From Acidobacteriaceae bacterium (GTDB lineage Bacteria > Acidobacteriota > Terriglobia > Terriglobales > Acidobacteriaceae), in the NCBI GenBank assembly GCA_003132445.1, contig PKXU01000090.1:31351-66382 (forward strand): 35,032 nucleotides of DNA, read 5' to 3'. Of the stretch, positions 28,033-32,518 are shown piece after piece (the stretch's first letter is position 1; each line of letters begins with the position of its first letter). Position numbers and translations under genes: made by a program. The notes under the pieces were generated by a model. That model was not told where the DNA came from. It did no database searches and saw only the letters and a list, made by a program, of their open reading frames with translations.

Positions 28033-28039
28033 ATAAAAA

Positions 28040-28101
28040 CGGCTTCCGGCAGCCGGCTTTCGGCTTCCACGCGTTCGATCCGGAAGCCCGAAGGCGGAAG
28101 C
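28040..28101. repeat. Inverted heptad arrays in the atpD-atpC gap (CGGCTTN / CGGAAGC)
   Basis: CGGCTTC, CGGCAGC, CGGCTTT and CGGCTTC (28040-28067) face CGGAAGC, CCGAAGG and CGGAAGC (28081-28101) across a 13-bp spacer. The two arms are complementary. They fill the 74-bp gap between atpD and atpC, 8 bp from the atpC start codon. Confidence 0.8.
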
Positions 28102-28106
28102 CCGCC

Positions 28107-29546
28107 CTACGCTGCTGCCTTCATCTTCTCTGCCGCTTCCAGCACTTCCTCGATTGGGCCTTTCATGTAGAACGCCTGCTCGGGGATGTCGTCATACTTT
28201 CCTTCCACGATTGCCTTGAACCCTTTGACCGTGTCGGCAACTTTTACGTAGCGTCCTGCCGCGCCGGTGAACTGTTCGGCCACATGAAACGGTTGCGATA
28301 AGAAGCGCTGAATCTTGCGGGCGCGCGCGACGGTAAGTTTCTGATCTTCCGTCAACTCGTCGATACCAAGGATGGCGATGATGTCCTGCAGATCTTTATA
28401 AGTCTGCAGTGTCTTCTTCACGGTTTGCGCAACATCGTAATGCTCCTGGCCCACGATGCGCGGATCGAGAATGCGGGAGGTCGATGCCAGCGGATCGACC
28501 GCGGGATAAATTCCAATTTCCGTCAACGCGCGCGAAAGCACTGTGGTTGCATCGAGGTGAGCAAACGTGGTCGCCGGAGCGGGATCGGTCAAGTCGTCGG
28601 CAGGCACGTAAATCGCCTGCACCGAGGTGACTGATCCTTTCTTCGTGGACGTGATGCGCTCTTGCAGTTCGCCCATTTCGGTGGCCAGATTTGGCTGATA
28701 ACCGACGGCGCTCGGCATACGGCCGAGCAGCGCGGAAACTTCCGAGCCGGCCTGGGTAAAACGGAAAATGTTGTCGATGAAGAGCAGTGTGTCGGAGCCC
28801 TCGACGTCGCGGAAGTACTCCGCGACTGTCAGTCCGGTTAACGCGACGCGCAAACGCGCCCCTGGAGGCTCGGTCATCTGGCCATAAATCAGCGCAGCTT
28901 TCGAGTGCGCCGGATCTCCGGGCTTGATGACGCCCGACTCGGTCATTTCCAGCCACAAATCGTTGCCTTCACGGGTGCGCTCGCCAACACCGGCAAACAC
29001 GGAGTAGCCGCCATGATTCTTGGCGACGTTGTTGATCAATTCCATGATGACGACGGTTTTACCCACACCCGCGCCGCCGAACAAACCGATCTTGCCGCCT
29101 TTCAAAAACGGCTGAATCAAGTCGATGACCTTCACGCCGGTTTCAAACATCTCGGCGGTCGTGGCCTGTTCGTCGAAGGCTGGCGCCAGACGGTGAATGG
29201 GCATTCTCTCTTTGTATTCGATTGGACCCAATTGATCGACGGGTTCGCCGATCACGTTCATCACCCGACCCAGAGTTCCGGGGCCTACCGGCACCGAGAT
29301 CGGCCCGCCCTGGTCGATGGCCTTCATGCCGCGCACCATGCCGTCGGTGGGCTGCATGGCAATGCAGCGCACGCGGCCTTCGCCAAGGTGCTGCTGCACT
29401 TCGAGAATTACGTTAATCGGGCTGGGGACAGTGAAACCGTCGCTCACAACTTTGACGGCTTCATAAATCGGAGGCAAGTGACCTTCGTGAAACTGGACAT
29501 CCACTGCCGGTCCCGCGATTTGAATGATATGTCCTACGTTTTCCAT
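28107..29546 (-). CDS. atpD: ATP synthase F1 subunit beta
   Basis: This 479-residue catalytic subunit has Walker A GGAGVGKT at 157-164, the catalytic Glu in [13 protein letters not shown], and Walker B in [37 protein letters not shown] is diagnostic for beta, and DELTEDQ occupies the position of the DELSEED lever. It makes ATP at the cytosolic face of the membrane. Length is normal. The start region has no Shine-Dalgarno sequence because a heptad array comes to within 7 bp of the ATG. It lies between gamma and epsilon as in the standard gene order. Confidence 0.98.
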
Positions 29547-29553
29547 ATAGCTG

Positions 29554-29700
29554 TGAGCTGTGAGCTACGAGCGGCGAGCAATGAATTCATGGCGCGCCAC
29601 TCAGCATTCAGCCCTTCTGCCCCTCATTTCAGTTTTGTTGCTGCACTGCTCGCTCCAAGCTCGTCGCTCCACGCTCGTCGCTCAAAGCTCAGAGCTTCCC
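29554..29700. repeat. Inverted heptad arrays in the atpG-atpD gap (NGAGCNN / GCTCNNN)
   Basis: Units TGAGCTG, TGAGCTA, CGAGCGG and CGAGCAA (29554-29581) face seven units GCTCCAA, GCTCGTC, GCTCCAC, GCTCGTC, GCTCAAA, GCTCAGA and GCTTCCC (29652-29700). The invariant GAGC/GCTC cores recur every 7 bp and are complementary between arms. The array touches the atpG stop side directly and ends 7 bp before the atpD ATG. About 70 bp between the arms lacks repeats. Confidence 0.82.
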
Positions 29701-30783: not shown

Positions 30784-30790
30784 TTGAAAC

Positions 30791-30882
30791 CAGTTCTCAG
30801 TTGCCAGTTCTCAGTTCTCAGTTAAAACCGCAGACCCCAGGGCTCCTACTGAGAACTGAGAACCGAGAACTGGGAACTTCTA
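30791..30882. repeat. Inverted heptad arrays in the atpA-atpG gap (CAGTTCT / ACTGAGA)
   Basis: CAGTTCT, CAGTTGC, CAGTTCT, CAGTTCT and CAGTTAA (30791-30825) face ACTGAGA, ACTGAGA, ACCGAGA, ACTGGGA and ACTTCTA (30848-30882). A 19-nt register pairs 30804-30822 with 30855-30873 with one G-T wobble. The last unit includes the atpA stop codon (30880-30882), and the first begins 7 bp before the atpG ATG, so the array spans the whole gap. Confidence 0.9.
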
Positions 30883-32412
30883 CTTCGCCACCGCTTCCCT
30901 GCTCGACACAAACTGCTGCTTCGCTTCTTTGATCACGTTCTGCAACTGGCCTTTTAGCGCGTCATCGAGAATTTTTTTCTCCATGATCGTACGCAGCAAG
31001 CCGGGATTGGTTGAATCGACGTACTTGTAAAGCTCGGCCTCGAACTCGCGCACTTGCGCGACCGGGAGATCGTCGAGGAATCCGCCGGTACCGGCCATGA
31101 TGATCAGAATTTGTTTGGAGAACGGTAGTGGTGAAAACTGATTCTGCTTCAGCAGTTCGACCAAACGTTGTCCACGATTCAACTGGGCTTGCGTGGCTTT
31201 GTCGAGATCGCTGCCGAAGGCCGCAAATGCTGCCAGTTCGCGATACTGCGCCAGTTCCAGCTTCAGCGTTCCCGCGACTTGCCGCATGGCTTTGATCTGT
31301 GCGCTGCCGCCCACGCGACTCACCGACAGGCCAACGTTCACCGCCGGACGCACGCCCTGGTTGAACAAATCCGTTTCCAGATAAATCTGCCCGTCGGTAA
31401 TCGAAATCACGTTAGTCGGAATATAAGCCGAGACGTCGCCCGCCTGCGTTTCAATAATCGGCAGCGCAGTCAGCGATCCTCCACCCATCTTGTCGCTCAG
31501 TTTGGAGGCTCGCTCCAGCAACCGCGAGTGAAGATAGAAAACGTCTCCCGGATAAGCCTCGCGTCCCGGCGGACGCCGCAAGAGCAGCGAAATCTCGCGA
31601 TACGATGCAGCATGTTTGGAAAGATCGTCATAGATAACCAGCGCATGGCGCTTGCTATCGCGGAAGTATTCGCCCATGGCGCACGCCGCGTAGGGCGAAA
31701 TATATTGCATGGGCGCCGGCTCGGACGCCGATGCCGCCACCACAATCGTGTACTCCATGGCGCCGGCATCTTCCAGAATCTTGACCACCTGGGCGATCGA
31801 GGAACGCTTCTGCCCGATCGCGTTGTAAATACAGATCAGGTCGTTTCCTTTGCTGTTGATGATGGTGTCGAGCGCGACGGCGGTCTTGCCGGTCTGACGG
31901 TCGCCGATGATCAATTCGCGCTGGCCGCGGCCGATCGGAATCATGCTGTCGATGGCCTTCAGTCCGGTCGCCATTGGCTCGCGCACCGGTTGCCGGTCGA
32001 TCACGCCCGGCGCGATGCGTTCGATCGCAATGAACTTGTCCGAAGCGATCGGCCCCTTATCGTCGATGGGCTCGCCCAGCGAGTTCACCACACGCCCGAT
32101 CATGGCATCGCCGACCGGCACGCTCATGATGCGCCCCGTGCGCTTTACTTCATCGCCTTCCTTGATCTCGGTGTACTCGCCGAGAATCACCACTCCCACC
32201 TGGTCTTCTTCCAGGTTCATAGCAATACCGGCAACGCCATGCGGAAAACTAAGCAGTTCGCCCGCCATGACCTTATCGAGTCCGTAAACGCGTGCGATGC
32301 CATCGCCCAGTGTAATGACGGTGCCTGTCTCGTCCACGGAGATCTGAGTTTCGTAATTCTCGATCTGCTCGCGGATCAGTTTCGTGATTTCGTCTGCCCT
32401 GATTTGTGCCAT
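30880..32412 (-). CDS. atpA: ATP synthase F1 subunit alpha
   Basis: This 510-residue subunit starts [20 protein letters not shown] and has the non-catalytic nucleotide-binding Walker A GDRQTGKT at 170-177. [33 protein letters not shown], the Walker B-like [20 protein letters not shown] and the alpha-specific [22 protein letters not shown] follow. [19 protein letters not shown] contains the conserved Arg finger. Length is standard. Its ATG is only 3 bp from the first unit of a heptad array, and the same array, facing inward, contains the stop codon of atpH upstream. It is therefore enclosed by arrays on both sides. Confidence 0.98.
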
Positions 32413-32415
32413 AAA

Positions 32416-32518
32416 TAGCTTTCAGCTTTCAGCTTCGAGTTATGAGCTGCGAGCTTCGAGCGCGAGCGAACACTTCTCGACTCGTAGCTCATAGCTCGAA
32501 GCTCGCAACTAAGAGCTA
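32416..32518. repeat. Inverted heptad arrays in the atpH-atpA gap (GAGCTNN / NNAGCTC)
   Basis: TAGCTTT, CAGCTTT, CAGCTTC, GAGTTAT, GAGCTGC, GAGCTTC, a 6-bp GAGCGC and GAGCGAA (32416-32470) face TCGACTC, GTAGCTC, ATAGCTC, GAAGCTC, GCAACTA and AGAGCTA (32477-32518). Positions 32431-32453 pair with 32481-32503 over 23 bp with two transition mismatches and a 27-nt loop. The right arm runs into atpH and supplies its stop codon (32509-32511) and last two Ser codons. Confidence 0.9.

Follow-up and report, generated by a model that had tools for sequence, protein, structure and literature searches.

Intergenic repeats with a 7-bp period are already known from Xanthomonas, Nostoc and Beggiatoaceae. 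Coding-strand copies of the GGGNATC repeats known from Xanthomonas and Nostoc (Rehm et al. 2015) mostly lie no more than 50 bp from the stop codon, and non-coding-strand copies no more than 50 bp from the next start codon; two Xanthomonas genomes have 70 and 75 inverted pairs, and positions common to two close species vary in length, as described in sections of PMC4692102. The TAACTGA repeats of marine Beggiatoaceae (MacGregor 2015) occur in ribosomal protein (r-protein) operons, and indels between two close Cyanothece strains come mostly in 7-nt steps, according to parts of PMC4679880. Among hairpins of other kinds, repetitive extragenic palindromic (REP) sequences at most 15 nt from a stop codon stall ribosomes, as reported in a portion of PMC12306157, and stem-loops of the selective RNA processing and stabilization (SRPS) type are described in Clostridium ATP-synthase and ribosomal operons in part of PMC8219983; excerpts of PMC5927463 served, with these two and PMC3733652, as a literature source. 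For Acidobacteria, we found no title or abstract describing such repeats. Here we analyze the gaps between the ATP synthase (atp) genes in a window of 35,032 nt (positions 31351-66382 of contig PKXU01000090.1) from an Acidobacteriaceae bacterium with a genome of 5.12 Mb in 203 contigs. These gaps are occupied by heptamer arrays that, unlike the heptameric repeats above, have no single unit.

The element, in which a unit of 7 bp (sometimes 8 bp) is repeated in two arrays that face each other, is concentrated in atp and r-protein operons. We tentatively assign what fills the atp gaps to a wider class of element that lies between cistrons in Ca. Sulfotelmatobacter and in Terriglobales related to it, the relatives with 81 to 90% atpG identity being Ca. 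Sulfotelmatobacter and Acidobacteriota metagenome-assembled genomes. The account that we favor, and hold provisionally, is that these are stop-anchored hairpins of fast turnover whose action, if they have any, depends on shape and not on sequence, in the manner of REP and SRPS elements.

Facing heptamer arrays fill the four atp gaps

As the original prediction had stated, the D-C, G-D, A-G and H-A gaps (letters denoting the flanking atp genes) measure 74, 154, 96 and 96 bp, and each is built from 7-bp units in two facing, complementary arms. All lie on the minus strand, and the arm coordinates are those of a lag-7 caller. The atpH-atpA gap (32413-32508, unit GAGCTNN) has its stop-proximal arm at 32481-32505 and its start-proximal arm at 32417-32461. 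In the atpA-atpG gap (30784-30879, unit CAGTTCT/AACTGAG), the corresponding arms span 30848-30878 and 30791-30823; in the atpG-atpD gap (29547-29700, unit NGAGCNN), 29652-29696 and 29549-29579, with a spacer of 72 bp; and in the atpD-atpC gap (28033-28106, unit CGGCTTN), 28080-28100 and 28040-28066. The best three lags were 7, 14 and 21 in all four gaps, and the best lag-7 run was matched by none of 2,000 Markov shuffles for H-A, A-G and G-D each and by 14 of 2,000 for D-C. The tight atp junctions carry no array, again as predicted.

The stop-proximal arm starts 3, 1, 4 and 6 bp past the previous stop codon (H-A, A-G, G-D and D-C, respectively), and the other arm stops 4, 7, 2 and 7 bp short of atpA, atpG, atpD and atpC, where distances of 3, 7, 7 and 8 bp had been given. 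Folding energy z-scores were -6.2 (H-A), -8.0 (A-G), -4.1 (G-D) and -1.9 (D-C) against mononucleotide shuffles and -2.4, -5.2, -1.6 and -0.8 against Markov shuffles, which retain much of the array composition. A strict inverted-repeat score was equalled in 1 (A-G) and 12 (H-A) of 1,000 shuffles and in 210 (G-D) and 193 (D-C). The latter two gaps are unremarkable as strict inverted repeats because their units are degenerate; their facing arms are clear by unit family and less so as a strict inverted repeat. Terminator-like sites numbered 11 across the region, against 7.8 expected, and the only one in the four gaps was found in D-C (28055-28040, then TTTTT). No covariance model of Rfam 15 matched the window, or locus L177 with its r-protein operon, at the gathering score.

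The seven atp genes, all named by Pfam, form a minus-strand block (27625-34295) that in transcript order comprises two b-type subunit genes (33840-34295 and 33049-33840), atpH (delta/OSCP, 32509-33045), atpA (alpha, 30880-32412), atpG (gamma, 29701-30783), atpD (beta, 28107-29546) and atpC (epsilon, 27625-28032). The H-A array seems to run on into the final atpH codons (32509-32530, TTAGCTCTTAG). The atpG product of the genus (window 29701-30783) has 360 amino acids against 285 positions in the Pfam profile, and more distant atpG genes align to it in separate pieces, which suggests sequence inserted in the middle of the gene.

Arrays are concentrated in the atp and r-protein operons

Both the atp and the r-protein operons are, as a rule, highly expressed. 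In 34 loci of the genus, arrays were called in 60 of 109 atp gaps and in 0 of 70 other co-directional gaps; in 46 more distant loci, the figures were 50 of 103 and 7 of 144. At atpD-atpC, at least two isolate genomes, those of Terracidiphilus gabretensis S55 and Granulicella mallensis, carry an array.

In the S10-spc-alpha r-protein operon of the genome under study, many gaps contain palindromes, among them heptamer or octamer arrays in facing arms. We surveyed r-protein gaps of 40 to 300 bp in 20 genomes of the same genus and corrected the set from 303 to 287 by dropping or trimming gaps: r19-r20 hides a small gene (L36-like by eye) and r09-r10 another (S14-like by eye), the S4 start was misplaced in r21-r22, leaving about 48 nt of coding sequence inside the gap, and three r18-r19 gaps overran a start. 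Lag-7 arrays were present in 117 of the 287 gaps (127/303 uncorrected), lag-8 arrays in 20 and strong inverted repeats in 113 (20 and 115 uncorrected), and any of these elements in 155 (165/303 uncorrected). By contrast, 65 further co-directional gaps from the neighborhood of atp in the genus gave none, and of 435 gaps elsewhere in the studied genome, 31 were positive at lag 7 and 59 for any element. The uncorrected gaps underlie the r-protein tests of Shine-Dalgarno (SD) sequences, coding sequence (CDS) identity bins, close pairs, mirrored order, in-register change and unpaired controls given below.

A wider survey of the same genome covered 1.55 Mb (87 of 203 contigs, some in part) and gaps of 30 to 600 bp, which may hide small genes, as the gene caller skips those below 50 codons. 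Lag-7 runs occurred in 42 of 833 gaps, while lags 4 to 6 and 8 to 13 gave 0 to 12; lags 14 and 21 gave 50 and 25. The 20 and 18 gaps found at lags 15 and 16 probably belong to the 8-bp class. Octamer arrays of the GTTTCAAA type, in facing arms, were seen in r-protein gaps (for example, L177 7118-7200 and 11845-11955) and probably account for the lag-8, lag-15 and lag-16 signals. Co-directional gaps had lag-7 runs in 35 of 568 cases, convergent gaps in 4 of 131 and divergent gaps in 3 of 134. Such runs were nearly absent from coding sequence, with 2 lag-7 segments in 563 kb of the genome's own CDS, 0 in 406 kb from the genus and 1 in 617 kb from elsewhere. The 56 arrays of the genome comprised 30 canonical units, none dominant (the commonest was present in 14). 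The main array units, AACTGAG, AATCAGC, AAGCCGG and AAGCTAG, lack GGG. The stop codons adjoining arrays showed no simple excess of TAG.

Junctions are kept while the unit is redrawn

What supports a function is that the same junctions are re-occupied by different units and occasionally by another class of palindrome. With a strict caller, S13-S11 held an array in 16 of 19 genomes with 10 different units, S8-L6 in 14 of 17 with 8 units and S11-S4 in 13 of 18 with 8 units; altogether, 58 units were found among the 149 arrays in the r-protein gaps of 20 genomes. A unit was held in common by 182 of 733 same-junction pairs, compared to 996 of 9,683 pairs from other junctions and genomes. When same-junction pairs were binned by CDS identity (uncorrected gaps), the unit matched in 170 of 726 pairs below 0.87 and then in 31 of 90, 2 of 18 and, above 0.93, 1 of 2. 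The alignment of relatives' gaps thus bore out the expectation that position and period are kept as the sequence changes, and close relatives with ordinary gaps and SD sequences were not found within the genus.

Replacement was also seen between very close genomes. The A-G and G-D gaps of L056 (a 3.3-kb contig) and L061, whose atpG genes are 97% identical, are wholly unlike, being heptamer arrays in L056 and AGACGT palindromes in L061, between flanking atpG/atpD blocks that are 0.88 to 1.00 identical. Unrelated palindromes occupy slots used by arrays in the A-G, G-D and D-C gaps of L061 and in r22-r23 of L230. Among 61 gap pairs from seven genome pairs with CDS identity of at least 0.896 (uncorrected), 22 were conserved, 21 partial and 18 replaced; in some of the pairs counted as conserved, the match lies in a leader, in coding sequence or in a small gene, and the cassette next to the stop is different, r22-r23 being one such case.

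Smaller changes were found as well. In the close pair L068/L073, one arm differs by 21 bp. In r08-r09, a case picked by eye, L240 and L244 differ by a T-to-C change at one position in all four stop-proximal units (TTAGC to CTAGC), and the other arm shows the matching A-to-G changes (GCTAA to GCTAG) plus a few others, with the order of the units and their remaining marks kept. Beyond the genus, in loci with less than 65% atpG identity, the A-G gap was at most 31 bp in 14 of the 21 measured, and several of these loci, isolate genomes among them, hold arrays at D-C and H-A. An assembly artefact is therefore unlikely.

Elements are anchored at the stop, and atp starts lack strong SD sequences

We then measured where the arms lie in 199 two-arm gaps from both operons. 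The first arm starts a median of 3 nt past the stop codon (interquartile range [IQR], 1.5 to 5), and the last ends a median of 8 nt before the start (IQR, 5 to 14). Across gap-length bins of <90, 90-130, 130-180 and 180-330 bp (n = 55, 71, 61 and 12), the element stayed 3, 3, 3 and 4 nt from the stop and lay 4, 8, 10 and 70 nt from the start. In the 108 r-protein gaps, the corresponding values were 3, 4, 3 and 6.5 nt from the stop and 4, 8, 36 and 112.5 nt from the start. In the 91 atp gaps, the start distance remained flat (3, 9, 7 and 11 nt; overall median 7), indicating that the atp element is anchored at both ends. Anchoring to the next start, as originally proposed, therefore holds in atp gaps at every length and fails as a general rule, since the start distance of r-protein gaps grows. 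At S11-S4 and S4-rpoA, the hairpin precedes a conserved stretch that has an AGGAG-type SD of its own; at S11-S4, it sits between that stretch and the stop. In the genome at large, the 35 co-directional arrays lie a median of 9 nt from the stop (IQR, 3.5 to 29.5).

The absence of strong SD sequences at atpA, atpG and atpD was borne out, and the SD of atpC is weak. Duplex energies with the anti-SD were -0.6 (atpA), -2.7 (atpG), +1.2 (atpD) and -3.5 (atpC) kcal/mol, compared to -7.5 for atpH and -7.0 for the second b-type gene, a strong SD being defined by a duplex dG of -4.4 or below. Starts were assigned by homology and simple scoring, and individual cases may be wrong. In the genus, the fraction of strong SDs was 0.03 at atpA (n = 32), 0.03 at atpG (n = 34) and 0.04 at atpC (n = 23), while the arrayless start of atpH had one in all 28 loci (1.00). 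These fractions were 0.19, 0.25 and 0.10 for atpA, atpG and atpC in loci of 65 to 76% identity and 0.73 (n = 22), 0.50 (n = 22) and 0.83 (n = 18) in the outgroup; for atpD, they were 0.29 in the genus (n = 34) and 0.77 in the outgroup (n = 22). A strict motif count gave 0.64, 0.32, 0.61 and 0.32 in the outgroup versus 0.03, 0.06, 0.00 and 0.29 in the genus for atpA, atpG, atpC and atpD, respectively. By this count the two atpD values are nearly equal, and the contrast between genus and outgroup vanishes there. For comparison, 0.42 of the ATG-initiated genes of the genome have a strong SD (n = 994; 0.26 when shuffled). Among r-protein genes, with uncorrected starts, the fraction was 0.35 with an array at most 15 nt away (n = 111) and 0.69 otherwise (n = 214). 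Overall, loss of the SD goes with array-bearing junctions.

The two arms of a gap belong together, and arms probably change at the DNA level

In 133 of 184 gaps, the two arms have consensus units that match at 6 or more of 7 positions, as compared with 1,826 of 17,834 random pairings and 568 of 2,858 pairings of the same junction across genomes. Within one family, arms of the same gap were 0.868 alike and arms of different gaps 0.850 (n = 110). We compared G-U with A-C mismatches between arms, using symmetric alignment scoring; the co-directional gaps of the genome gave 65:59. The r-protein excess loses its significance against an unpaired same-family control, and we make no claim of selection on base pairs at the RNA level. 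Base-by-base selection on the RNA was thus not detected; a rough hairpin could still suffice.

The original prediction had also proposed that the arrays grew by slippage plus inversion. The 21-bp arm difference between L068 and L073 is in line with slippage; for inversion, mirrored unit order was not found in 152 gaps. In these gaps, a test for fold-back copying by template switching (background in part of PMC8794818) gave 2,654 observed against 2,689 expected with none at p ≤ 0.05, and this mechanism was set aside, the test being weak where many units are alike; by eye, the arms of the L073 A-G gap are mirrored. An aggregate test for concerted in-register change (935 against 388 expected and 1,069 against 486 expected) was discarded as confounded, because distinct periodic arrays differ in phase by construction. 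Transposition was likewise not retained: in the 1.55 Mb examined, which is not decisive, no second copy was found beyond the arms. The four atp gaps match elsewhere in that sequence in their arms alone, and G-D and D-C have no other match there at an E value of 1e-3.

What the arrays may do

In the account that we favor, the arrays would be made and resized by DNA-level processes, namely, 7-bp slippage and replacement of whole cassettes. On the polycistronic mRNA, each would form a long stem-loop that caps the preceding cistron at its 3' end and, like REP and SRPS elements, serves as a barrier or a processing point, for which a fold is needed and no particular sequence. In atp gaps, the hairpin may in addition fold the gap away and bring stop and start together, and this proximity could allow downstream atp subunits to be translated by coupling without an SD of their own. 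The stronger proposition, that operons keep a post-stop RNA hairpin through selection on shape alone while DNA-level processes rewrite its letters, as at r08-r09, where L240 and L244 differ in register at one position of every unit in both arms, we consider doubtful; if true, it would describe a functional element whose position and fold are conserved and whose sequence is not, unseen by ordinary sequence or covariation searches.

Several results weigh against a stop-anchored functional hairpin. Within one genome, 122 of 610 junction pairs have a common unit, near the same-junction rate, and stop anchoring in the genome at large is loose, only 23 of 35 arrays being nearer the stop than the start. 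Between the arms of atp gaps there is no excess of G-U over A-C (95:111), and this ratio falls below that of unpaired same-family arms (1,803:1,465; p = 0.0095). In r-protein gaps, the ratio of 187:125 (184:120 on corrected gaps; the p values are for the uncorrected counts) differs from 1:1 with p = 0.0005 and from the unpaired control with p = 0.10. Convergent (4/131) and divergent (3/134) gaps hold arrays too. Some r-protein junctions are mostly empty (0 of 12 for r02-r03 and 2 of 19 for r16-r17, uncorrected), and 22 co-directional gaps flanking the located r-protein genes on the same contigs contained 5 arrays and 2 strong inverted repeats, which blurs the contrast between r-protein gaps and background; these were left out as controls, as four of the five array gaps lie at the upstream end of the stretch and perhaps belong to the same ribosomal region.

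The very fast turnover of units and cassettes, together with the lack of a clear G-U excess, the arrays in convergent and divergent gaps, their near absence from coding sequence and the 21-bp arm difference in a close pair, would also be expected if the arrays were neutral by-products of slippage and strand switching at transcribed DNA that persist where a gap tolerates them, the host bearing the loss of the SD. This is a possible explanation, if on the doubtful side, and it follows not far behind the functional one because no RNA-level pairing constraint was found and turnover is extreme. It fits less well with junctions being re-occupied by new units (16/19 at S13-S11 and 14/17 at S8-L6, against 0 of 65 control gaps), with placement about 3 nt from the stop and with the weakness of the SD at essential genes that retain an array. 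The idea with which the analysis began, that an array determines the alpha, gamma, beta and epsilon stoichiometry by masking or opening the next start, appears rather improbable. Its likelihood is raised by the anchoring of atp gaps at both ends: arms end 2 to 7 nt before the four starts of the window, and in 91 two-arm atp gaps the median is 7 nt whatever the length. The weak SDs at atp array starts and the fewer strong SDs at array-near r-protein genes fit as well. The r-protein anchor, however, is the stop and not the start, the hairpins of S11-S4 and S4-rpoA stand upstream of a stretch with its own SD, and the unit at a given start is not conserved; start-site control is thus possible in atp and is not a common denominator of both operons.

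Replacement of whole cassettes between close relatives would suit miniature mobile elements of the REPIN (REP doublet forming hairpins) or miniature inverted-repeat transposable element type, moved by a Y1 transposase. The genome has five Y1_Tnp matches, three of them over the cut-off, Y1 transposases with terminal repeats on either side have been described in Acidobacteria in part of PMC3733652, and the AGACGT palindromes of L061 look REPIN-like. We nevertheless regard this origin as quite improbable for the arrays, given that the four atp gaps recur in their arms alone, with G-D and D-C recurring nowhere else in the 1.55 Mb, and that r-protein gaps of 20 genomes hold 58 different units; a common terminus was not noticed, although no search aimed at one was made. 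We think it very unlikely that the arrays serve as binding sites for a protein that recognizes RNA or DNA, the role suggested for the TAACTGA repeats of Beggiatoaceae. Placement near starts, missing SDs and r-protein operons agree with that proposal as given in parts of MacGregor 2015 (PMC4679880), and the start-proximal arm AGAACTGA resembles TAACTGA. Units vary, however, among the junctions of one genome and at one junction among genomes, and such sites would have no need of facing arms.

If stop-anchored hairpins are functional, structure and position are kept while the sequence, and sometimes the class of repeat, is swapped within a genus, and standard tests of conservation and covariation would miss such hairpins. 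They would also raise a question of translation, as essential atp genes with weak or no SD lie beside hairpins that draw the previous stop close. If instead the arrays are neutral, they show the extent to which repeat growth overwrites ribosome-binding sites in essential operons. In either case, dozens of genomes with the same junctions provide a natural experiment.

Other elements in the same and neighboring gaps

Slots of heptamer arrays are also filled by another palindrome, AGACGTTGCTTGCAACGTCT, to which an outer GTAGAGACG/CGTCTCTAC stem is often added; it looks REPIN-like and was seen in A-G, G-D and D-C of L061, A-G of L048, D-C of L062, G-D of L070 (degenerate) and r22-r23 of L230. A dispersed element, GGATCCTTCG...CTCAGGATGACA, recurs in relatives, at H-A of L065 and L047, A-G of L065, H-A of L048 and in several r-protein gaps. 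Apparent insertions of about 500 bp, perhaps genes, are present at hairpin junctions in A-G of L090 (519 bp) and r21-r22 of L239 (591 bp).

At r08-r09 (after the L24 gene) and r21-r22 (S11-S4), conserved stretches resemble r-protein leader RNAs, with no Rfam match in L177; they read GTCTCACGAACCGGTA...CCGAAACCGTGAGA (in many genomes) and CCGGGACGAAGGGTGAAGCCAAACCCGTAAACCGGTCATCTAAAAGGAG. Between map and infA in L177 (8100-8298), the array is followed by a start-like ATGAGCAAAGAAGACGCG and then by a GCGGGCGTGAGCGAAGCGGGAGCCCGC repeat element, which also occurs in some relatives and may fall within the next reading frame.

Four other gaps of the window, all on the plus strand, contain arrays. 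Those at 3337-3366 (ATTGTTG/TGATTGC family; gap 3335-3514) and 3868-3922 (eight copies of GCGGCTT; gap 3866-4019) each begin 2 nt past the upstream gene, that at 5011-5046 (AGCCGAG; gap 4962-5103) does not adjoin the upstream gene, and the gap 15269-15473 has facing arms at 15278-15303 and 15328-15393 (ATGAGTC/GCTCATA).

Comparison with known systems

The GGGNATC repeats share with the atp arrays the 7-bp period, the intergenic position and the preference for co-directional gaps. They consist, however, of one G-rich unit type with G-quadruplex potential, whereas the arrays described here belong to many families without a requirement for GGG, are concentrated in atp and r-protein operons and have their unit redrawn between species. 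Tandem heptamers of the cyanobacterium Calothrix, known here through their citation in sections of Rehm et al. 2015 (PMC4692102), are likewise dispersed. The TAACTGA repeats also have a 7-bp period, lie just upstream of starts where the SD is usually missing and are similar in sequence and orientation to our start-proximal arm AGAACTGA, but they are direct repeats of a single unit, with one inverted case in the main genome, while ours form facing arms that begin beside the stop.

REP sequences and bacterial interspersed mosaic elements of enterobacteria, and the GTAG and CGTC REPs, are likewise dispersed extragenic hairpins, many of them shortly past a stop, with effects based on structure. 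The position near the stop is found here as well, with a median of 3 nt in 199 gaps and 9 nt in the genome at large. A shared palindromic consensus is not, the four window gaps recurring in their arms alone within the 1.55 Mb; REPs have such a consensus, and the GTAG REPs are tied to REP-associated tyrosine transposases, whereas the elements here are tandem heptamers of no fixed sequence. SRPS stem-loops are similarly found inside operons, including ATP-synthase and ribosomal ones, and are proposed in part of PMC8219983 to set transcript ratios. They are short ordinary hairpins backed by transcriptome sequencing, while the predicted hairpins of the atp and r-protein operons described here are long and built of tandem repeats.

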